From the NCBI GenBank assembly GCA_029567705.1, contig JAKPXC010000108.1:1-42749 (forward strand): 42,749 nt of DNA, given 5' to 3'. A program made the position numbers and the translations under genes. The stretch is from Candidatus Cloacimonadota bacterium. Its GTDB lineage: Bacteria; Cloacimonadota; Cloacimonadia; Cloacimonadales; Cloacimonadaceae. Position 1 is the first letter of the stretch. Each line of letters opens with the position of its first letter. Shown here piece after piece: positions 1,523 to 12,892 of the stretch. The notes under the pieces were generated by a model. It saw only the letters and a list, made by a program, of their open reading frames with translations. It did not search any database and was not told where the DNA came from.

Positions 1523-2653
1523 ATGAAAAGCTTATTTTATATAGCAGTGTTAATGGGTCTGGCGTTATTGTTGGGATCATGTTGGCCGACTGAACCAGAA
1601 TATCCGCGTCCTGAGCCCTGGCTTTGCAGCATCAATGCAGATGGAACAGGTTTCAGAAAAATCATGAAATCACCTTTCAACACCCCTGGATTAGTGGACA
1701 TCTACATGACCAAGGACAATCGGATCATCTTCTATGGGAGCAAGCTCTGGATCTCGGAGACAGATACGATCAGGGTTGAACAGATTACACCGGATAATCT
1801 TGTCTTGTTCGATAAACCTCAGCTTGAATTTACAAGAGATGGTGGCACGGCCTATTTTGACGCAAGCAGAGATATTTATAAACTTAAACTGTCCACCGGT
1901 GAGGTGTTCAAAATCACAGAAACGCCGGTTAACTATAGATATGCAGAACCGTTATTATCTGATGATGAGCAATGTATAACCATGAGATCATACCCATGTA
2001 AAGGGAGAGAGTCAGGAATTGTTGGAGCTTACATAGACTTACGAGATAACGTCCTAAAATACATATATTCAAATATGTGGTTTCCAGCATCGTATAAAAC
2101 AATGCTAATGACCACATTGAATAGAATGATCCTTGAGAACAGGGACGGCTTAGGAAGCGTCAGCTTGGAGGACTCTACCTATACTCTGCATTTATCTTAT
2201 CTGCCAAGCTATAAAAATATGTTTGAAACAAGCGCTGACCAACGCTATCTGATTACTAAATATATTCAATCAACCAAGTCCTACGCTATGGCTATAGATC
2301 TCCAAAACTACGCTCGTTATAATCTCGGTTATGTGAATGAGCATTACTCGCGAAGCCCGATCAAGACCTGTAAAGATGCAAACCTCGTATTTTATTTTGA
2401 TGATCAGCAGATTTACAGATACGATCTGGACACTCACCAGAAGAGCATTGTTATAGGATCAAATGCGGGAGTTGACGTGTGCAGTATTATCATGCTTGCC
2501 CCCACTTGGGATGGCTCTAAAGTATACTTCTATGCCGATATATTAAAGAATTTAGGAGGACTCGATGAAACAATGAGATATTGCGCTGGTATGTGTGATG
2601 TTATTGATTATTATGTCCACAGAATGGCTGTTTGCCGTGGCTTTACATATTGA
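1523..2653 (+). CDS. Lipoprotein with TolB-like beta-propeller character
   Basis: This 376-residue protein has a type II signal peptide with lipobox LLLGSC, so lipidation is expected at Cys20. The phrase SINADGTGFRKI just after the signal resembles the repeat start of TolB/PD40-type propellers, where a value and its residue are reported per blade. Further weak blades (YFDASRDIYKLKLSTGEVFKIT) follow. The start at 1523 is set by GGAGGAAGAG just upstream. The Cys-containing C-terminus is not obviously propeller. A strong terminator overlaps the stop. It is probably an envelope-anchored propeller; its partner is unknown. Confidence 0.7.
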   Translation: MKSLFYIAVLMGLALLLGSCWPTEPEYPRPEPWLCSINADGTGFRKIMKSPFNTPGLVDIYMTKDNRIIFYGSKLWISETDTIRVEQITPDNLVLFDKPQLEFTRDGGTAYFDASRDIYKLKLSTGEVFKITETPVNYRYAEPLLSDDEQCITMRSYPCKGRESGIVGAYIDLRDNVLKYIYSNMWFPASYKTMLMTTLNRMILENRDGLGSVSLEDSTYTLHLSYLPSYKNMFETSADQRYLITKYIQSTKSYAMAIDLQNYARYNLGYVNEHYSRSPIKTCKDANLVFYFDDQQIYRYDLDTHQKSIVIGSNAGVDVCSIIMLAPTWDGSKVYFYADILKNLGGLDETMRYCAGMCDVIDYYVHRMAVCRGFTY

Positions 2654-2690
2654 AAAGAAGCCCTGAGAGATCGGGGCTTCTTTTATTTTG
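2653..2690 (+). terminator. Rho-independent terminator
   Basis: Arms 2653-2663 and 2674-2684 form an 11-bp stem (AAAAGAAGCCC / GGGCTTCTTTT) with a 10-base loop. The stem runs into a T-rich tail to 2689. It overlaps the stop of the TolB-like lipoprotein gene and ends that unit. Confidence 0.85.
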
Positions 2691-3101
2691 GGGGGGCGAT
2701 CGTCTGACTTGTCTTCAGGTTTATCCCACCTTGAGCGTCTGATCTGAAAGAATATCTGTTCCAATAAACTCCTGAAAAATAGTAAGTTCTGCGCCTGAGG
2801 AAAAGATTCCACAGAAAAGTGTCCAAATTCGGAGGAAAGTGTCCACGTATAAATAGTAGAGGGAGCCATATCTTTGGTTCTTTCAAGCAGTGGAAAGCAG
2901 GATATTCCGATACTATATATTGGGATAAGGGGCACTTCGTGGGTTAAGCCGTTCCTGAGGTTCCTTATCTATGGTTTATTGGCTGAAACATAGGGTGGAC
3001 TTTGTGCTTGACACAATAGCAGCACTATTTTAGACTGCCGGAGAGTGTTCTTTTAGGTGCTGTGGAGATGGATTGCTCATGAATAAGTAAAGGATTAAAA
3101 A
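2691..3101. other. Gene-free stretch with a short direct repeat
   Basis: No supportable gene is visible. The AAAGTGTCCA-type direct repeats at 2814-2845 resemble tandem terminal repeats of insertion sequences and may be a remnant. The end of the stretch carries the candidate hutU promoter. The minus-strand open frame at 2552-2935 runs through the terminator and was not accepted. Confidence 0.5.
3008..3036 (+). promoter_or_regulatory. Candidate promoter for the hutU-to-GPP34 array
   Basis: TTGACA at 3008-3013 is followed by a 17-base spacer and TAGACT at 3031-3036, which matches the -10 consensus at four of six positions. The start codon is 65 bases downstream. This is the best-spaced candidate promoter in the window. 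Confidence 0.45.
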
Positions 3102-5093
3102 ATGTCAGAGACAAAAAGAATTGGAATCTCGAGCGTGTTACCGCCCGATCCCGTTTTTGAACCCGGTATCCGCAGGGCTCCGGATAGAGGTTTGAATCTG
3201 AGCCCCGCCGAAATGATTCAAGCTGTCAAGAATGCTCTGCGCTACATACCTAAGGAGCTTCACGAGAAGCTGGCTCCGGAGTTTATGCAGGAATTGAAGA
3301 CTATGGGGCGCATCTACGGTTACCGCTTCCGTCCCCAGGGAAGAATCTACGGCAAGCCAATAGATGAGTATGAAGGCACTACAGCCGGTCGTGCCTTGCA
3401 GGTGATGATAGACAATAATCTGGATTTTGATATTGCTCTCTATCCTTACGAATTGGTTACCTACGGAGAGACCGGGCAGGTTTGTCAGAACTGGATGCAA
3501 TACAGATTGATCATGCAGTATCTCAGTGTGATTCGTGATGATCAAACCCTGGTAGTATCCTCCGGGCATCCATTAGGACTCTTTCCTTCCAGACCGGAAT
3601 CTCCCCGGGTAATCTCCACCAATGGACTGGTCGTGGGTAAATGGGATAATCCCGATGATTTCAAGCGGCTTACTGCTTTGGGAGTGGCAAATTATGGACA
3701 AATGACAGCCGGGGGCTGGATGTACATCGGCCCGCAAGGTATTGTTCATGGCACCTATATCACGCTGCTCAATGCCGGTAGAAAGTATCTTGGAATACCT
3801 CAGGATAAAGACCTGAGCGGGATTCTCTTCATCTCCAGTGGTTTGGGAGGAATGAGCGGTGCTCAATCCAAAGCCGTGGAGATAGCCGGAGGCATCGGAG
3901 TGATAGCCGAGGTGGACTACAGCCGGATTCAGACCCGGCACAGCCAGGGCTGGGTATCCAAAGTTTCCGATAAACTGGATGAAATCTTTGGCTGGGTGGA
4001 TGAATATCGGATAAGCGGCAAGCCAGTTTCCATAGCCTATCATGGCAATATTGTTGATCTGCTGGAATATGTAGATCGGCACGATATCAAGGCGGAATTG
4101 ATCTCGGATCAGACCTCCTGCCATGCCGTCTACGAGGGAGGATACACTCCCGCTGGGCTCAGTTTTGAGCAGGGCAGAGAACTGATCGCTCATGATCTTT
4201 CAACCTTTAAAACCAAAGTGGATGAATCCCTCAGGCGTCATTACCGGGTGATCAAGAGCCTCACGCACAAGGGCTCGTATTTCTGGGATTATGGCAATAG
4301 CTTTATGGCTTCCATCTTTGATGCTGGTGTGTCGGAGATTGCTATTAATGGTGTAAACACAAATGATGGCTTTATCTGGCCTTCCTATGTGGAAGATATC
4401 ATGGGGCCGCTATGTTTCGATTATGGCTATGGTCCCTTCCGCTGGGTTTGTCTCTCTCGAAAAGATGAAGATCTGCACAAGACGGATATGGCTGCCAAAG
4501 CTCTGATAGATCCCAATCGTAACGCTATGGACAGAGATAACTATCATTGGATCAGCAGTGCCGAAGAGAATAAGCTGGTGGTGGGCACCAAGGCCAGAAT
4601 ATTGTATGCCGATGAAGAAGGTAGAGTTCGGATAGCTCTCAAGTTTAATGAGATGATTCGCAAGGGAGAAATCGGCCCGGTGATGCTGGGACGTGATCAC
4701 CACGATGTTTCCGGCACGGATTCACCCTTCCGGGAAACTGCCAATATCAAAGATGGTTCCAACCTCATGGCTGATATGGCTACGCATTGTTTTGCCGGCA
4801 ATGTGGCCAGAGGGATGAGCCTGGTGGTGCTTTCCAATGGGGGAGGAGTGGGGATAGGACGCTCCATCAATGGCGGTAACGGTATTGTTCTGGATGGCAG
4901 TGAACGAATGGATAATGTGGTGCGGTCTGCCCTGTCCTGGGATGTGATGGGCGGAGTGGCTCGCAGAAACTGGGCACGGAATCCCAATTCTGTGAAAACC
5001 GTTCAAGACTGGAACCATAAACATGAAGAAGAAGGACACATCACTGTTCCCGAACCGATCGACGAGCAGTGGCTTAAATCCATATTCGAGTGA
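3102..5093 (+). CDS. hutU: Urocanate hydratase
   Basis: Urocanase converts urocanate to imidazolonepropionate in histidine degradation, using tightly bound NAD+ as an electrophile. The 663-residue protein shows family blocks throughout: SSGLGGMSGAQ (NAD-binding glycine loop), DQTSCHAVYEGGY, GPLCFDYGYGPFRW with the conserved Cys at residue 438, MLGRDHHD and GGGVGIGRS. Its length matches the longer urocanase form (about 660-680 residues, as in animals) rather than the roughly 555-residue enteric type. The start follows an AAAGGA sequence. No other hut gene is nearby; the next gene begins eight bases after the stop. Identity is secure; the operon context is odd. Confidence 0.95.
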   Translation: MSETKRIGISSVLPPDPVFEPGIRRAPDRGLNLSPAEMIQAVKNALRYIPKELHEKLAPEFMQELKTMGRIYGYRFRPQGRIYGKPIDEYEGTTAGRALQVMIDNNLDFDIALYPYELVTYGETGQVCQNWMQYRLIMQYLSVIRDDQTLVVSSGHPLGLFPSRPESPRVISTNGLVVGKWDNPDDFKRLTALGVANYGQMTAGGWMYIGPQGIVHGTYITLLNAGRKYLGIPQDKDLSGILFISSGLGGMSGAQSKAVEIAGGIGVIAEVDYSRIQTRHSQGWVSKVSDKLDEIFGWVDEYRISGKPVSIAYHGNIVDLLEYVDRHDIKAELISDQTSCHAVYEGGYTPAGLSFEQGRELIAHDLSTFKTKVDESLRRHYRVIKSLTHKGSYFWDYGNSFMASIFDAGVSEIAINGVNTNDGFIWPSYVEDIMGPLCFDYGYGPFRWVCLSRKDEDLHKTDMAAKALIDPNRNAMDRDNYHWISSAEENKLVVGTKARILYADEEGRVRIALKFNEMIRKGEIGPVMLGRDHHDVSGTDSPFRETANIKDGSNLMADMATHCFAGNVARGMSLVVLSNGGGVGIGRSINGGNGIVLDGSERMDNVVRSALSWDVMGGVARRNWARNPNSVKTVQDWNHKHEEEGHITVPEPIDEQWLKSIFE

Positions 5094-5101
5094 GGAGCAG
5101 T

Positions 5102-6463
5102 ATGCAGAATCAGTTTAGCAAATTGATGAAGTCAGAAGGTCTCGATGAAGCCTTGATACGCACTTTCGGCTCATATTACGACAGCTTTGCAGCCGGAGAA
5201 AAGGGAATGATAGCTTCCGGAGAGATCCGGCCTCCATCTGTGGATAATCTGGTGGATTACAACCAGATCAAGGACCTTGCCAGAACTGATATCTTGAAGA
5301 AAGTTGTGGTGATAAAGCTCAATGGCGGCTTGGGAACCTCCATGGGATTAACTCAGGCCAAATCTCTGCTTCCTGTCAAAGGCAATATGAACTTTCTGGA
5401 TATCATTTCACGGCAGGTGCTCACTCTTCGGGCGCAAAGCGGTTATGATGTTCTGCTCTTGCTGATGAATAGTTATGTGACCGAGGAAGACACTCTGAAA
5501 TACTTAAGCAAGTACCCCGATCTGAGCAAACAAAACATCCCTATCTCTTTTGTGCAAAACAAATTCCCCAGGATACGACAGGATAATCTGCAGCCCTATG
5601 AATCCAGTGATAAGGATAAGGGCTGGAATCCTCCCGGGCATGGGGATCTCTATGCATCGATCAGTAAGGATCATCTGCTGGATAGGTTGATTGATCAAGG
5701 TTATAGATATGCTTTTGTATCCAATGCAGATAATCTGGGCGCAACGATCGATACAGCCATTCCGAACTATATGGAGAAGAATGATCTGAGCTTCCTGATG
5801 GAGGTTTGCGACCGTAGCGTCAACGATAAAAAGGGCGGTCATCTCTGTGAGGATAAAACGGGGCAATTGCTGCTTCGGGAGATAGCTCAGTGTCCGCCGG
5901 AGGATCTGGAGCAGTTTCAGGATATAAACTACTACCGGTATTTCAATACCAATAACCTCTGGATAGACCTGAAGGCATTACAGTGGCAGCTTATCTCCGG
6001 AGATGGAGTGCTGCTGCTACCGCTGATTGTAAATCCCAAAGTGGTGGATGGTACCCCGGTGTATCAATTGGAGACGGCGATGGGCTCTGCAATTAGTGTG
6101 TTTGGCAAATCCAAAGCGCTGGTAGTGCCAAGATCCCGTTTTGCTCCGGTGAAAAAGACGAGCGATCTGCTGGCGATTTGGTCTGATCTCTATGAACTGA
6201 ACGATCAGTATCAGATTGTACTTAAGCGGGGTGTAAACGCTGTTCCGAAGCTGGAACTGGATGATCGCTTCTATGGCAAGATCGAGCAGATGAGAGCTCG
6301 TTTTTCCAAGGGTGTGCCCTCTCTGGTGGCATGTTCTGAGCTCAAGCTGGAAGGCGATATCAGTTTTGAGGATGAGGTGATCTGTGAGGGCAGGGTTCAG
6401 GTGATAGCCGCCGGCCCCAGCGTTATCAAGAAAGGAGTCATTAGTGGACAGATCAATCTGTAG
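5102..6463 (+). CDS. UTP-glucose-1-phosphate uridylyltransferase, UGP2-type
   Basis: The enzyme makes UDP-glucose from UTP and glucose-1-phosphate for glycan and glycolipid synthesis. Near residue 75 it has KLNGGLGTSMGL, the nucleotide-binding loop of the eukaryote-like UDPGP family, followed by AKSLLPVK, NPPGHGDLY, FVSNADNLGA and FNTNNLWIDL. This differs from the GalU family. I chose ATG 5102 because GAGGAG sits just before it; an in-frame GTG at 5090 overlaps the hutU stop and lacks such a site. The length of 453 residues fits the family. The MCE gene starts 12 bases after its stop. Confidence 0.9.
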   Translation: MQNQFSKLMKSEGLDEALIRTFGSYYDSFAAGEKGMIASGEIRPPSVDNLVDYNQIKDLARTDILKKVVVIKLNGGLGTSMGLTQAKSLLPVKGNMNFLDIISRQVLTLRAQSGYDVLLLLMNSYVTEEDTLKYLSKYPDLSKQNIPISFVQNKFPRIRQDNLQPYESSDKDKGWNPPGHGDLYASISKDHLLDRLIDQGYRYAFVSNADNLGATIDTAIPNYMEKNDLSFLMEVCDRSVNDKKGGHLCEDKTGQLLLREIAQCPPEDLEQFQDINYYRYFNTNNLWIDLKALQWQLISGDGVLLLPLIVNPKVVDGTPVYQLETAMGSAISVFGKSKALVVPRSRFAPVKKTSDLLAIWSDLYELNDQYQIVLKRGVNAVPKLELDDRFYGKIEQMRARFSKGVPSLVACSELKLEGDISFEDEVICEGRVQVIAAGPSVIKKGVISGQINL

Positions 6464-6475
6464 TGGAGATAGCTT

Positions 6476-7741
6476 ATGGTTAGCCGAGCGGTAAAGGTCC
6501 GGCTCGGGATCTTTCTGAGCATAGGTCTGATTCTGGGCTTGATCTTCGTGATTGCCGTGGCGGGGGATAAACTCTTGGATAAACGGGATATCTACTATGT
6601 GGAGTTTGAGAACTTCTCCGTATCCGGCCTGCAGGTGGGAGGGGAAGTTCGCTACAATGGTATCATGGTGGGACGGGTTGAGGCCATCAAGATCAATCCC
6701 AAGGACATCACCAAGATCATACTCACTTTGTCTCTGGATAAAGGCACTCCCATCAAAGAAGATACTGGAGCCGTGCTGATCTTTGTGGGTATCACCGGAG
6801 TGAAAGCTGTCGAGCTGAAAGGCGGGACCAATGCCTCACCGATGCTGAAACAGGGAGGCTATATCAAGGCCGGCACAACCATGCTGGATAGTATATCCGA
6901 TAAAGCCGGCTCCATTGCGGATAAGATTGACGAACTAACTGCCAACCTGAACAGCATGACCAATGAAGAAAACCGCAGAAACTTGGCTGAGATCTTGAAT
7001 CAAACCAGTCTCCTGATCCGTGATACCAGGCAGAATCTAACCCAGACTGTAAGCTCCATCACCACAATCTCAGAGAACGCTGCCCAAATCACGGGAGAAG
7101 CCAGCGAGAAATTTGGCCAATTGGCTGATCAACTCAGCTTGAGCATGAATGAGCTGACCAGCTCTTCAACCCAGTCTATTGAGACGATTTCCGGTTCTGC
7201 TGCAACGGCTCTGGATAGTATCAGCCTTACCACCAGGGCAAGTATTGAGCTTCTGGCCAGAAGCCTGACCAGGGACGTGGAAAGCCTGACCATGAATTTG
7301 AACGAAAGTATAGATGAGATAACCAATCAGACAAACCTGCTGCTGGCAGATACAAGAACACAGGTGAACACCTTGGGCACTCACAGTGATGAGCTTATCT
7401 TGAGCACAACCCGTGATATTGCTACCCTCAGTGGCAGCATCAACAGCTCTCTGGAAAGAGTGAATCAGATCCTTATGTCGGAGGATTTTGACCGTATCCT
7501 CAGTAACATCGCTGTGCTATCAAATAAACTGAATGATATGGAGACCAGAGACCTGTTATCTGAGCTGACTCTCACGATAAACCGGGCGGGAAGCTTGATC
7601 GGCAACCTGGACAGAACGCTGATCCGTAGCCGGTCAAACATCTTTGAGACTCTGGAATCTCTGCGGGAAGCATCCGAGAATCTAAACGACTTCTCCCGGC
7701 AAATCTCGGACACACCTTCTATTCTCTTGAGAGGTAATTAG
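6476..7741 (+). CDS. MCE-domain lipid-transport protein (MlaD-like)
   Basis: MCE proteins are the substrate-binding or tunnel components of Mla-type lipid ABC transporters. One N-terminal membrane helix (residues about 8-30) anchors the protein in the inner membrane. A single MCE domain follows (about 38-115, with SGLQVGGEVRYNGIMVGRVEAI and ITGVKAVELKGG). The remaining roughly 270 residues are Ser/Thr/Leu-rich, probably alpha-helical with heptad character, like the helical needles of Mce1/PqiB/LetB-type proteins. The protein ends in DTPSILLRGN, reminiscent of MCE tails. It sits in order with an auxiliary lipoprotein, permease and ATPase. Confidence 0.9.
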   Translation: MVSRAVKVRLGIFLSIGLILGLIFVIAVAGDKLLDKRDIYYVEFENFSVSGLQVGGEVRYNGIMVGRVEAIKINPKDITKIILTLSLDKGTPIKEDTGAVLIFVGITGVKAVELKGGTNASPMLKQGGYIKAGTTMLDSISDKAGSIADKIDELTANLNSMTNEENRRNLAEILNQTSLLIRDTRQNLTQTVSSITTISENAAQITGEASEKFGQLADQLSLSMNELTSSSTQSIETISGSAATALDSISLTTRASIELLARSLTRDVESLTMNLNESIDEITNQTNLLLADTRTQVNTLGTHSDELILSTTRDIATLSGSINSSLERVNQILMSEDFDRILSNIAVLSNKLNDMETRDLLSELTLTINRAGSLIGNLDRTLIRSRSNIFETLESLREASENLNDFSRQISDTPSILLRGN

Positions 7742-7745
7742 TCCT

Positions 7746-9923
7746 ATGATAAAGATGATTAAACATGTTTCGCTGTATCTTCTCGTATTACTGCCTCTGG
7801 TCTTAGGTGGTTGTTTTGGCAGAATAGCCCGGGTGGAGACGAATTACTATGTGCTGGATTACCTCAAGGCTACAGAGCGGGAGAACCTGAAACAGAGGAC
7901 GCCTCAGGCTGAAGCACTGGAGGTCTGGGATACATCAGTATCCAGGGCCTACAGCCGAAACCAGATTGTGGTGAAGGAAAACAACTACCGTATCCGTTAT
8001 CTGCAGAATGATCTCTGGGCCACCAGACTGTCTGAATCCGTGCCCAACCTCATCACTCAACGCCTAAGGGCTTATAATATCTTTCGCAAGACCGATCGTG
8101 ATATTGGTGTGCAGAATCCCAGCCACTACCTTGAGACCAGCATACTGAATCTGGAGAAGAGGGAAGGAACTCATCCCTCAGCTTACCTTTCCATGGAGTT
8201 CTATCTCAGAGACAGCGCCAGCCAGAGAGTTCTGCTCACGCATAAAGCAGAGACCAGCCGTCCTTTGACAGATAATAGCATTGTGTATCTGGTACAGGTC
8301 TTCAATGAGATGATCATGCAGGAGACAGATATCTTTGCTGCCCGGACGATCATGCTGTTTGAAGGCAGAGAAGCTATTTCCGGCACAGGCACACGTTATG
8401 CCAGCCCTGCTGCCCGTTTCTATTATGAGGCCATTGAAGCGGAAACGGCAGCTCCCGAGATGGGTGAATTGATGCTAAACCTCAGTACAGGAGAGCATCC
8501 GGAATACTATTATACGATTTACAAGTACGATTCTGAGCATACTATGGTGGAACGCATGAATGCTCTTATCGGGCAACCCGTTCAGCTTGAGGTAGGAGAC
8601 TACACGGTTGTAGTGGGTGAGAACCAGGATATCAGTATCCCCGTAAACATCCGAGCCAGGATGAGAACCGTGGTGGACAATTCCTACTGGTCTGAGCTCC
8701 GGGTAATGATTATTGATGAAGGCAGGAATCGGGTTCGGATGGGTTATGATATCTTCAGCAGAGACGAGGATGAGCTGGCCTATGAGCTCTATTCTCAAGG
8801 ATACAGCCTGGATGATGAATCCATCGGAGAGCTGGATAAGACCTGGATTCTACCGGCCGGACACTATATGGTTAAGCTGGGGGGAGGCTCCTGGACTGAC
8901 CTGAAGGACTTCACTACCTTAAAGCTGTATCAGGGACAGAGCCAAGTTCTCACCATAGTCGTGAATCCGGCTGGAGAAAGGAACTTCATGGTGGGAGCTG
9001 GAGTCCTGAATGAAGATGGCATCCTGGGTAAAAGCAGCAGTATACACCGTGGAGCTGTTCATACTAATATCAGCCTCAGCCAAAAGAACTCCACTGCTCA
9101 GGAAGATCCCATTAACAGCTTCACCCTCAATGCCCAGTTTGAGAACAACATTAACTTGAACCAAGACTATTTTGAGTACAACCTCAGAAGCCTTTATGAC
9201 TTGGGGATGAGTCTCAGCACGGGGAACGACTTCCGTATCTCGCAGGATGGCCTTAGTCTTAAGAATACAGTGCTCTTCACACCTTTTAGAAACGATCGTC
9301 TTCTGAGGAACTTTGGATTCTATGGAAGAGCTGATCTGAATACCCATCTCTTCGATGAGATATTGAACTTCTCCAATCCGCGCAATGTTGTGATGATTGA
9401 TAGGGATGGAGATACTCTTTCAGTGAGCCAGGAGCAATCTTCCATGCGCTCCAGAATTGCCTTGTTTCCTCTACGGCTTAAGGAAGGAATGGGGGTAACC
9501 TATCGCTTTGTGCTGAGTCCAAAAGTATCCATGAGTATCCGGGGCGGTTACGGTTGGCAGCAGGATTTGAACAGGCGTTCCTTTACTTTTGACCGCGTTA
9601 GTTATGCCATAAATGATACTCTGGAGTATGATGTTTACAAGGAAGACGACGACAATATCGCCACGGGCATCGAGAGCACCTTTATCCTGTCGGCTTTGAA
9701 TCTCTTTGGCTTGTTCAGTATCAATTCCTCATTCGACGTTCTCTTTCCCATGATAGGTGATAGAGATAACAAAGTGAAGTATGAAAGTGATAACAGGCTG
9801 AACATCCGTCTATTCAGAAACATATCTCTGGATCTGAAAGCCAATATCCGTTATGATACAGCCAACAATGATTATGTGTTGTACGACTACAGCTCGTTCC
9901 TGAGGCTTTCACTCTTTTATTGA
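7746..9923 (+). CDS. PqiC-like lipoprotein fused to a probable outer-membrane beta-barrel
   Basis: This 725-residue protein begins with a lipoprotein signal whose lipobox LGGC places the lipidated Cys at 23. Residues about 30-205 resemble the auxiliary lipoproteins (PqiC/YmbA type) that accompany MCE transporters: YYVLDYL, then LSESVPNLITQRLRAYNIF and YLETSILNLE. Residues about 215-410 look like one or two beta-sandwich modules (VGDYTVVV; LPAGHYMVKLGGG). From about 430 to the end come alternating amphipathic beta strands rich in Asn, Arg, Phe and Tyr, finishing in SSFLRLSLFY with a C-terminal aromatic, as in outer-membrane barrels. The gene is four bases after the MCE gene and three before the permease. 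I infer that it is the outer-membrane end of this transporter. The barrel assignment is by pattern only. Confidence 0.75.
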   Translation: MIKMIKHVSLYLLVLLPLVLGGCFGRIARVETNYYVLDYLKATERENLKQRTPQAEALEVWDTSVSRAYSRNQIVVKENNYRIRYLQNDLWATRLSESVPNLITQRLRAYNIFRKTDRDIGVQNPSHYLETSILNLEKREGTHPSAYLSMEFYLRDSASQRVLLTHKAETSRPLTDNSIVYLVQVFNEMIMQETDIFAARTIMLFEGREAISGTGTRYASPAARFYYEAIEAETAAPEMGELMLNLSTGEHPEYYYTIYKYDSEHTMVERMNALIGQPVQLEVGDYTVVVGENQDISIPVNIRARMRTVVDNSYWSELRVMIIDEGRNRVRMGYDIFSRDEDELAYELYSQGYSLDDESIGELDKTWILPAGHYMVKLGGGSWTDLKDFTTLKLYQGQSQVLTIVVNPAGERNFMVGAGVLNEDGILGKSSSIHRGAVHTNISLSQKNSTAQEDPINSFTLNAQFENNINLNQDYFEYNLRSLYDLGMSLSTGNDFRISQDGLSLKNTVLFTPFRNDRLLRNFGFYGRADLNTHLFDEILNFSNPRNVVMIDRDGDTLSVSQEQSSMRSRIALFPLRLKEGMGVTYRFVLSPKVSMSIRGGYGWQQDLNRRSFTFDRVSYAINDTLEYDVYKEDDDNIATGIESTFILSALNLFGLFSINSSFDVLFPMIGDRDNKVKYESDNRLNIRLFRNISLDLKANIRYDTANNDYVLYDYSSFLRLSLFY

Positions 9924-9926
9924 TCC

Positions 9927-11009
9927 ATGCTTGAGTATCATAGGAAGCAAAGCAGTCTGATCTTGAGTGGGGAACTCATCGCCGCTCAGATACCGGCAGT
10001 TTACGCAGCCCTCAAGAAGGAACTCAGACAGGCAGAAGTAAGCTCAATAAACATCTCCGGCCTCACAGACCTGGATTCTGCCGGTGTGGCACTTTTGGAC
10101 GAGATGCAGGAGATGCTTGTGCAGAGTGGTAGACTGGTGCTCATAGAAGGCGCAAGTGAGCTTCAGCAGTCGATCATCGAGACCTTCAGCTCCTCGGGTC
10201 TTGCTATTCAGGAACAACCCAGGATGCCGGGTTTCTTTGAAACAATCGGCCAGAGCCTGCTTGATACCCTCAATTCTTTTTGGGTTGTGTTAATACTGGC
10301 ATCAGAGCTTGCATATTGGTCGGTGGTGGGTATATTTGATCACACCAGTGCCCGTAAGGGTTCTCTGAGTGTAGCAGCCTATCAATTGGGAGCGGCAGCC
10401 TTTCCGATCGTAGCGCTGTTATCATTTATCATTGGTTTTATCTTATCTTTGCAATCGGGACTTCAACTCAAGACCTTCGGTGCCAATGTGTTCCTGCCAG
10501 ATCTACTTTCTATAACCATGGTACGCGAGATGGCTTCTTTGGTGACAGCAATAATCGTTGCAGGAAGAAGCGGAAGCTCCATTGCCTCAGAGGTTGCCAC
10601 CATGAAGGTGACCGAAGAGCTGGACGCTCTCAAGGCCATGGCCCTGAATCCGCTTCGTTATACTATAGTTCCAAAGATACATGGCATAACCATCGTCATG
10701 CCGATTCTGGTATTCTTCTCTATCCTCTTTGCCATGATTGGTGGTGCCATCATAGGAATTGGCATGCTGGAGCTTAGTCCGGTAGTATTCTTGACCCGAT
10801 CCCTGAGAATTCTGGTTTTTAAGGATATACTTATCACCTATATCAAGAGCACTGTCTTTGCTTGGGTGATTGTGGTAGTTGGCTCTCATTACGGTTTCCA
10901 GGTCAAAGGTGGAGCCGAGGGAGTGGGAAAAGCCACAACCATGGCAGTGGTGACTTCCATCTTCACTGTGATTGTGATTGACGCCATTTTTAGTTTGTTG
11001 TATATATGA
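9927..11009 (+). CDS. mlaE: STAS + MlaE-family lipid ABC permease
   Basis: The 360-residue protein combines an N-terminal STAS domain (about residues 1-90; ISGLTDLDSAGVALLDEM is the MlaB-like core) with an MlaE permease of five to six membrane helices (about 115-360). The permease carries the family signatures MVREMASLVTAIIVAGRSGSSIASEVATMKVTEE and ALNPLRY. In E. coli, MlaB and MlaE are separate proteins; here they are fused. The MlaF gene starts in an ATGA overlap with its stop, implying translational coupling. Direction of lipid movement cannot be read from sequence. Confidence 0.92.
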   Translation: MLEYHRKQSSLILSGELIAAQIPAVYAALKKELRQAEVSSINISGLTDLDSAGVALLDEMQEMLVQSGRLVLIEGASELQQSIIETFSSSGLAIQEQPRMPGFFETIGQSLLDTLNSFWVVLILASELAYWSVVGIFDHTSARKGSLSVAAYQLGAAAFPIVALLSFIIGFILSLQSGLQLKTFGANVFLPDLLSITMVREMASLVTAIIVAGRSGSSIASEVATMKVTEELDALKAMALNPLRYTIVPKIHGITIVMPILVFFSILFAMIGGAIIGIGMLELSPVVFLTRSLRILVFKDILITYIKSTVFAWVIVVVGSHYGFQVKGGAEGVGKATTMAVVTSIFTVIVIDAIFSLLYI

Positions 11010-11749
11010 GCAAGAATGCGGTAATAGAAGTAAGAGGGTTGGATGCTGCCTATGGCGAGCACCAGATTCTCTCCGATGTAAACGTGGACATCCCTGCCAA
11101 TCAGGTAACGGTTATCCTTGGTACCAGTGGCTGCGGGAAGACCACTCTATTACGCAATATCCTGCGCTTGGAGCCTGCCAAAGCCGGTTCGGTCAGATAC
11201 TGGGGTGAGGAAGTGCTAAACATGGAGGAGCAGGACTTCTACAAGATACTGCTCAAGACTGGTGTTCTGTTTCAAAACGGTGCACTCATCAATTCCATCC
11301 CGGTATTTGATAACATTGCAATTCCCTTGGAGCAGCACACCAAGCTGAGTAAATCAATCATCGAGAAGATGGTAAGGGTCAAGCTCTCTCTGGTGCATCT
11401 AGATCATGCTATCAACCTTCTGCCTTCAGAGCTTTCCGGAGGTATGAAGAAAAGGGCTGCCTTGGCTCGGGCTATCATTATGGACCCACTCATACTCTTC
11501 TGTGATGAACCTTCTGCAGGTCTTGACCCTCAGACTTCAGCCACTCTGGATGAACTGCTCCTGGATCTCAAGAATCAGCTCAAAATGACCATGTTGATAG
11601 TGACGCACGAACTGGCTTCTATTCATAGGATTGCGGATAGAATCATCTTTTTAGATAGTGGTAAGCTTATCTTCCAGGGTAGCCTAAAAGAAGCCAAAGA
11701 ATCAAACATGCCCAAAGTGAAGACATTCTTTTCAGCCGGGAAATACTGA
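11006..11749 (+). CDS. mlaF: MlaF-like ABC transporter ATPase
   Basis: This 247-residue ATP-binding subunit drives the MlaE permease. It has a Walker A GTSGCGKTT (about residue 39), an ABC signature LSGGMKKRAALARAI, a Walker B LILFCDEP and a switch His in VTHE. The GMKKR form of the signature is typical of the Mla/Mce ATPase subfamily. It overlaps mlaE by ATGA, and its TGA overlaps the folA ATG by one base (TGATG). Confidence 0.93.
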   Translation: MSKNAVIEVRGLDAAYGEHQILSDVNVDIPANQVTVILGTSGCGKTTLLRNILRLEPAKAGSVRYWGEEVLNMEEQDFYKILLKTGVLFQNGALINSIPVFDNIAIPLEQHTKLSKSIIEKMVRVKLSLVHLDHAINLLPSELSGGMKKRAALARAIIMDPLILFCDEPSAGLDPQTSATLDELLLDLKNQLKMTMLIVTHELASIHRIADRIIFLDSGKLIFQGSLKEAKESNMPKVKTFFSAGKY

Positions 11750-12264
11750 TGCAGGATTATTCCATTATCGTGGCCATGGATAGAAATCGTTTGATAGGTG
11801 CCAGGAACCATCTTCCTTGGCGTATCACGGAGGATCTGGCTTATTTCCGCACCAGAACCTTGAATCAGAATGTCATCATGGGAAGAAAAACCTGGCTCTC
11901 AATTGGCAAGGCCCTGGATGAAAGAACCAATATCGTCCTCACTAATGACCTTGGCTTCAGTTATCCGGGCGTTATTGTTCAACACAGCATTGCGGAGCTG
12001 GAATCCTGGCTGGTTTCACAACAGAGCCCTAACGAGAACTTCATCATTGGCGGTGCAGGGGTATTTGAACAGTTTCTTCCCTTGGCCTGCAAGATGTATA
12101 TCACAAGGATAGAACATGAGTTTGAGGGAGATACCTATTTCCCCCCGTATAATGAAGAAGAGTGGCTTCTCACCAGCTATGAGACGCAAAGCTCAAGTTC
12201 CGGATATGAATTAAGTTTTAACCTGTATGAAAGAAGAGGAGAGACCCATGCTAAACTTGGCTGA
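11749..12264 (+). CDS. folA: Dihydrofolate reductase
   Basis: DHFR reduces dihydrofolate to tetrahydrofolate with NADPH. The 171-residue length is typical. Visible motifs are IIVAMDRNRLIGARNHLPW near the start, the catalytic Asp29 in WRITEDL, MGRKTWLSIGKAL (NADPH phosphate loop), IIGGAGVFEQFL and ITRIEHEFEGDTYFP. Translation is probably coupled to the preceding ATPase through TGATG. No thymidylate synthase gene is nearby. Its place in a lipid-transport array looks like packing rather than shared function. Confidence 0.95.
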   Translation: MQDYSIIVAMDRNRLIGARNHLPWRITEDLAYFRTRTLNQNVIMGRKTWLSIGKALDERTNIVLTNDLGFSYPGVIVQHSIAELESWLVSQQSPNENFIIGGAGVFEQFLPLACKMYITRIEHEFEGDTYFPPYNEEEWLLTSYETQSSSSGYELSFNLYERRGETHAKLG

Positions 12265-12892
12265 AGACCTGATCCTGCTGGCTCTGGACGATACCACCGG
12301 CAGTTTCTACAGAATGACCGACGTCAATTTCAATCTTGCCCTTGTAGGTGCTGTGTTTATGAATCTGGCAATTCTGGAACGCATAGATGTTGATCAGCAA
12401 AACCTCTTCGTCAGTTCTACAGAAGCAACTGGAGACCGGATTCTGGATGAGATACTGGGGCTGCTAACCTCCCCGGATAGCTCTTGTGATACTGCCGATT
12501 TGATCCGAATGGTTTATAATGCGATTCCTAATCTGCGGGACAAACTTCTGGAGAGCCTGAAGCAAAAGGGTGTAGTTGAGATGAAGGAGGAGAAGGTGTT
12601 CTGGCTCTTCAATCATCGCAGATACCCAGTAATCAACAACAGAGAAGAACAGGAGATTCTCAGCAGAATCAAAGCCGTAGTTCTGCAAGGTGCTGCTCCA
12701 GAGCAGAAGGACATCGTATTGATCTCCCTGCTATGTGTATGCGACCTGCTGGATAAAGTCTTTACAAAAGAGGAGCTCCAAACGCATTGTGAGCGCCTAG
12801 AGCTCCTAAGATCAATGGATTTGATAGCTCACTCAGTGAACAAGATCATCGCTGAAATCCAGATGATGATCGCATCCACCTTTATCGCTTAG
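12248..12892 (+). CDS. GPP34 (GOLPH3-like) family protein
   Basis: The protein has the GPP34 fold seen in the eukaryotic Golgi phosphoprotein GOLPH3 and in scattered bacterial proteins: LNLAEDLILLALDDTTGSF at the start, then a mostly helical body with alternating Leu-rich segments and a final hydrophobic helix. I chose ATG 12248 because AGAGGAG sits six bases upstream; an earlier in-frame ATG at 12227 lacks one. The gene overlaps the folA end by 17 bases. GOLPH3 binds phosphoinositide at membranes; whether the bacterial form binds lipid is unknown. Its last four bases are shared with the htpG stop on the other strand. Confidence 0.85.
   Translation: MLNLAEDLILLALDDTTGSFYRMTDVNFNLALVGAVFMNLAILERIDVDQQNLFVSSTEATGDRILDEILGLLTSPDSSCDTADLIRMVYNAIPNLRDKLLESLKQKGVVEMKEEKVFWLFNHRRYPVINNREEQEILSRIKAVVLQGAAPEQKDIVLISLLCVCDLLDKVFTKEELQTHCERLELLRSMDLIAHSVNKIIAEIQMMIASTFIA

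Follow-up and report, generated by a model that had tools for sequence, protein, structure and literature searches.

The window, a stretch of 42,749 nucleotides from a Candidatus Cloacimonadota contig, carries a tight run of forward-strand genes at 5090-12892, all co-directional and separated by gaps of no more than 12 nt or joined by short overlaps. The run opens with a UDP-glucose pyrophosphorylase-like gene (5090-6463), followed by the gene for a 421-aa MCE protein of the MlaD type (6476..7741; PF02470, E=1e-12), by a gene at 7746..9923 for a 725-aa protein joining a PqiC domain to a predicted beta-barrel, by a gene for a 360-aa protein in which a STAS domain is fused to the MlaE permease (9927..11009; PF02405, E=3e-66, and PF13466) and by the gene for a 247-aa MlaF-type ATPase (11006..11749; PF00005, E=4e-26, with the MlaF model as top NCBIfam match). 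A DHFR gene (11749-12264) and a gene with a GPP34 domain (Golgi phosphoprotein 3-like; 12227-12892; PF05719) close the run. Homologues of MlaD, MlaE and MlaF are found together in this operon with an MlaB-like STAS domain (PF02470, PF02405, PF00005 and PF13466). The fusion gene has an ATG start and no internal stop, and the single 725-residue chain that an earlier note on this DNA had placed between the MCE needle gene and the STAS-MlaE gene is an intact frame, 4 nt downstream of the former and 3 nt upstream of the latter; STAS-MlaE and MlaF overlap by 4 nt. In the source genome it is the sole PqiC-family gene found, while the adjoining MCE gene is one of three. The DHFR and GPP34 genes overlap, the latter starting within the 3' end of the former; eukaryotic GPP34 proteins bind phosphoinositides. 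The promoter scan gave a result near chance.

The N-terminal part of the fusion protein agrees with its earlier description as a lipoprotein with a PqiC-like domain. A lipoprotein signal peptide (residues 1-22) and the lipidation cysteine occupy 7746..7814, with the Cys23 codon at 7812-7814; the lipobox reads LGG-C23, and Cys23 does not vary in either of two alignments, of 23 and of 35 homologues. The PqiC/ABC_trans_aux domain extends over residues 33-205 (7842..8360). Profile PF03886 matches residues 36-192 with 49.8 bits (curated cut-off 26), and 23/23 homologues match it as well; Foldseek recovers the same fold in 2iqi (E=4.7e-10) and 8q2c (E=1.8e-8) with target TM-scores of 0.85-0.86. The full-length AlphaFold2 model, built from 35 sequences (mean pLDDT 79.3), gives a PqiC-type domain up to residue 205 with pLDDT of 84-95 and then a linker; the arrangement of the domains in this model is uncertain because its pTM is only 0.44. 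Where one or two beta modules had been claimed, the model gives two beta-sandwich-like modules (residues ~239-310 and ~316-421; 8460..9008; block pLDDT mostly 75-88), which are also kept in the split homologues outside Cloacimonadota. A low-confidence hinge at residues 422-432 follows.

The remainder of the chain (residues 434-724; 9045..9917) is a predicted 14-strand outer-membrane beta-barrel. The strand-rich C-terminal region, put at about 300 residues ending in an aromatic, measures about 290 residues before the final Y725, and an aromatic residue occurs within the last three positions in 34/35 homologues. The full-length model shows here a long antiparallel strand series with pLDDT mostly 70-89. 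When residues 425-725 were modelled alone, the confidence rose to a pLDDT of 82.7 and a pTM of 0.73; this model has one short hairpin and 14 long strands, which average about 14 residues and form a single antiparallel series. In Foldseek searches, the C-terminal part of the full model matches outer-membrane barrels, and for the domain alone all 50 of the PDB matches listed are such barrels, including autotransporter domains, FapF, OmpG, NanC, porins and others. The TM-scores to any single solved barrel are modest (~0.4-0.6, with an rmsd of ~8 A) and no family stands out, which is why the count of 14 strands should be read as a result of the model. The hydrophobic alternation of the barrel strands is 2.54 versus 1.16 in shuffled sequences, and none of 2000 shuffles reaches it; in the PqiC and sandwich strands, which are shorter and fewer, the alternation is below significance.

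Family profiles point in the same direction. In the fusion protein DUF481 (PF04338) scores 21.2 bits, barely above its cut-off of 21.1; among 23 homologues, at E<=0.1, it is matched in 16 (best 9e-12) and DUF3078 (PF11276) in 14 (best 2.5e-9). The PDB sequence search, performed with the whole protein and with the alignment of the beta modules plus barrel, yielded no barrel relative, so the evidence for the barrel comes from comparing folds and from family profiles. The barrel proposed in the earlier note is nevertheless well supported by prediction and comparison as the fold of residues 434-724. DUF481/DUF3078 outer-membrane proteins resemble this region through weak to clear profile matches over the barrel but are standalone. 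The same Cloacimonadota genomes contain standalone DUF3078/DUF481-like proteins of ~300 aa with signal-peptide-like starts (L135-L138, e.g. G000:C28:284-1201), which are distant barrel relatives and, as far as seen, have no linkage to PqiC or MCE.

The adjoining MCE protein is composed of a TM helix, one MCE domain and a long helical needle and has no C-terminal barrel. In 20/20 aligned homologues it ends in a helix and a short motif, which is not the C-terminal barrel of the Veillonella type. This conserved motif (NDFSRQISDTPSILLRGN; 7685..7738) contains F406 and P414, invariant in the 20 homologues, and is the best-conserved stretch of the protein outside the N-terminal and MCE region. The length of the MCE protein varies from ~283 aa (families f6 and f7) to 421 aa in the source, nearly all of the variation falling in the helical part, while the motif is retained. 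Among solved structures, the MCE chain of PDB 13hr is the closest relative of the MCE protein (2.4e-22), and the MCE profile aligns with it through the C-terminal motif region. 13hr also has PqiC-type lipoprotein chains; its ABC-auxiliary lipoprotein is a PqiC relative, but it has 214 aa and no barrel. We propose that the motif may act as a docking peptide for a PqiC ring.

As the earlier note had suggested, the fusion was surveyed across Cloacimonadota. A profile search of 125 genomes detected homologues in 113, which makes the observation more than a chance one; the whole protein lies in a single frame in 86 genomes, and in 14 it is replaced by two adjacent genes (12 of these genomes come from families f12 and f13, which belong to the same class, and a single one each from f6 and f8). 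In the split version, a lipoprotein of ~200-217 aa with its own lipobox accompanies a barrel protein of 515-540 aa with its own signal-peptide-like start. Other matches are partial, mostly broken by contig ends. The fusion is real and conserved in Cloacimonadota. All named homologues belong to this phylum except L097, whose record is titled Armatimonadetes and which is as close to the fusion protein as other members of the source's order. A subclade of genus g6 has no fusion gene and can therefore do without the system: the gene is absent from G007 (99% complete), G024, G032, G035, G063 and G067, some of them more than 90% complete, while congeners have it, and these absences represent an apparent loss of the system. 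In one f7 genome (L034, G042:C157, near 5200-5600) a TAA interrupts the lipoprotein part, which is fused and open in its close relative G050; a pseudogene, a sequencing error and a re-split gene are possible alternatives.

To describe the distribution outside the phylum, the search was widened to 387 genomes, 262 of them outside Cloacimonadota. Full-length proteins with the beta modules and barrel were found in nine outside genomes from seven families. In seven of these genomes, from five families (L139, L141-L146), the barrel gene adjoins genes for MCE, a PqiC-type lipoprotein and MlaE, with MlaF present in 6/7. Two other loci are organised differently. L140 (G229:C23) has the order barrel-MlaE-MlaF and no recognised MCE or PqiC gene; upstream, where these would be expected, lies a 596-aa ORF (7701-9491, minus strand) with no convincing family match. 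At L148 (G252:C148; 6007-12291, minus strand) a 659-aa barrel relative is located beside two MCE genes, MlaF and MlaE, and no PqiC gene was recognised.

Without an outgroup, the root of the barrel tree stayed open; it was placed once eight outside barrels had been added, and the root shown is the midpoint. The split sequences, i.e., those of the outgroups and of f12/f13, separate from the source's order. Within this order the split f8 diverges first, the split f6 pairs with the fused f7, and the remaining 20 fused sequences cluster together (96/93). A minimum of two switches between the fused and split states is required. With the outside split pairs as outgroup, separate genes appear to be the ancestral state and the fusion a derived one, which perhaps arose twice. 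Two barrels of f94, a family outside the phylum, are placed among the f12/f13 sequences, which makes transfer of the barrel between lineages likely. In G117 (L134, contig C5), a member of f13 whose relatives are split, a fused copy groups with f9 while MlaE groups with f13; this suggests either transfer or a mixed, chimeric bin.

Among other envelope components, MlaA, the outer-membrane lipoprotein of the canonical six-part Mla system, was detected in 0/125 Cloacimonadota genomes, the E. coli and Caulobacter controls being positive, while machinery of the outer membrane is present: Omp85 was found in 11/11 and LolA in 10/11 of the genomes checked. At L154 (G000:C68) a second MCE gene, for a 300-aa protein (5076-5978, minus strand), adjoins a gene for a 1015-aa protein (2026-5073, minus strand) that combines a Peptidase_MA-like domain and a PD40 propeller with an Omp85 domain at the C-terminus; the neighbours of this MCE gene include neither a permease nor an ATPase gene. 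Judging by coordinates, the same pairing occurs in G005 (C10), G037 (C83) and G040 (C349), and it is possibly another pair of MCE with an outer-membrane barrel.

We suppose that, in an MCE lipid transporter or bridge of the MlaEFD type, the 725-aa protein is probably the outer-membrane subunit. Its domains, lipobox, predicted barrel, operon and fusion/split history come directly from sequence or model; from them we infer a ring and its stoichiometry, docking, bridging, cargo, direction and a lipid path through the barrel. The fusion protein would receive its lipid at Cys23 and be delivered to the outer membrane, where its PqiC domains would probably form a ring on the inner face and grip the C-terminal tip of the MCE needle. 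The beta modules would connect this ring to the 14-strand barrel, which would anchor it in the outer membrane and may offer lipids a way into or out of the membrane. Together with the MCE needle and the STAS-MlaE/MlaF ATPase, the protein would form an ATP-driven bridge from the inner to the outer membrane, a role that we consider plausible. The cargo would most likely be phospholipid and, by analogy with Mla, its transport would more likely be retrograde. The fusion of PqiC with the barrel is in itself strong evidence that both halves work together.

A narrower form of this explanation, to which we assign a substantial but minority share of likelihood, is that the barrel serves solely as an anchor for the PqiC ring and the needle tip, and lipids cross at the ring. 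PqiC has been argued to tether PqiB like a bearing (PMC10897342), the Brucella Mpc system functions with PqiC alone (PMC12436622), and an N-terminal lipid with a C-terminal barrel would make a double anchor. However, a barrel of ~290 residues with conserved positions is not obviously needed for anchoring, and in other systems a lipid anchor is enough by itself. One can also suggest that the barrel is an entry pore for the import of another hydrophobic substrate from outside, comparable to the mycobacterial Mce systems, which transport sterols and fatty acids. The channel-type barrels (OmpG, FadL) among the fold matches and the diversity of lipids moved by MCE systems speak for import, but the operon, with its UDP-glucose pyrophosphorylase-like, DHFR and GPP34 neighbours, contains no catabolic hint, and the near-universal presence of the gene in Cloacimonadota fits a housekeeping function; we regard import as unlikely.

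Two further explanations concern the nature of the protein itself. It seems very improbable that the C-terminal part, instead of being a membrane barrel, is a beta-rich domain that is soluble, secreted or periplasmic. Such a reading would accord with the barrel being a predicted one that closely matches no single solved structure, yet residues 430-725, for which a soluble fold had been named as the outcome that would speak against a barrel, were not modelled as soluble: the series of long, amphipathic antiparallel strands with its aromatic end, the restriction of the listed fold matches to outer-membrane barrels and the DUF481/DUF3078 matches oppose it, as does the signal peptide that the barrel has when separately encoded. 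We therefore reject it on model, family and amphipathicity evidence. The possibility that mistakes in gene calling, which the earlier note had also considered, or in assembly created the fusion appears to us practically negligible. Some genomes do have two ORFs, but these are true two-gene versions, in which a clear stop is followed by a new start and a signal peptide, the frame is uninterrupted in the 86 genomes, and the fused and split labels cluster on the tree; gene-calling error was rejected on these grounds. The outer-membrane subunit of an MCE transporter remains our preferred reading.

For most phyla it has yet to be explained how MCE needles are joined to the outer membrane; Grasekamp et al. 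(PMC10665443) put forward an explanation for MlaD of the Veillonella type. Here a predicted barrel is found in the gene next to MCE, together with the type of lipoprotein that is known to grasp the needle tip. This suggests a barrel as partner of MCE lipid transporters, either fused or encoded by a neighbouring gene. Because the chain is fused, the outer-membrane end of the machine could be purified and tested as a single protein. We see about equal chances for and against the broader proposal that several lineages share an undescribed branch of MCE transporters with a dedicated outer-membrane subunit made of two beta modules and a 14-strand barrel, in most cases beside or fused to a PqiC lipoprotein; this subunit would provide the FCB long-MlaD systems with the outer-membrane end that they lack, and the PqiC ring with the barrels would form a continuous lipid path from the inner to the outer membrane.

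Within the open-access papers searched, we found no account of an MCE system in which PqiC and a dedicated barrel form a pair or a fusion, in a group reported not to have the MlaD barrel. No paper was found on Cloacimonadota with MCE, or on TGD4 with MCE and a barrel, which is a weak negative covering open-licence literature only. The premise of the earlier note that an outer-membrane component and the auxiliary lipoprotein are always separate proteins was overstated, since the MCE chain of Veillonella parvula MlaD bears a C-terminal barrel, which fractionates with the outer membrane (PMC10665443), and fusions of PqiC (DUF330) to MCE domains have been reported (PMC5561183). What does stand as unusual is which two pieces are fused here, and that the same pair also occurs as separate genes.

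The closest known systems each share a part of this arrangement. E. coli PqiABC has a homologous PqiC lipoprotein fold, and its needle is held at the outer membrane: PqiC, an octameric toroid, binds PqiB and lies among the head groups of the membrane (PMC10897342). Yet this PqiC is short and barrel-free, PqiA is no MlaE/MlaF ABC transporter, and PqiB has three MCE domains. The Mpc system of Brucella abortus (MpcEFDA) is more similar, as it combines MlaE/MlaF, a single-MCE needle and a PqiC-type lipoprotein in one operon and has been proposed to bridge the envelope; its PqiC relative MpcA pulls down MpcE, MpcF and MpcD (PMC12436622). The Brucella lipoprotein, however, is separate and short, with no barrel reported, whereas in Cloacimonadota the barrel is located on the lipoprotein and STAS is fused to MlaE. 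With MlaEFD and a PqiC-type lipoprotein and without MlaA, the Cloacimonadota system belongs to the Mpc type, of which the barrel makes it an extended form. The Veillonella MlaEFD system with its long MlaD is likewise an MCE bridge with an outer-membrane barrel and without MlaA, but its barrel has 10 strands and is part of the MCE protein, and no PqiC is involved, while the predicted 14-strand barrel of Cloacimonadota is on the PqiC protein or in a separate gene; the MlaD barrel was reported as absent from FCB and PVC MlaD (Grasekamp et al., PMC10665443). The Cloacimonadota system is a combination of the PqiC cap, as in Brucella, with the barrel principle, as in Veillonella, placed in a different gene.
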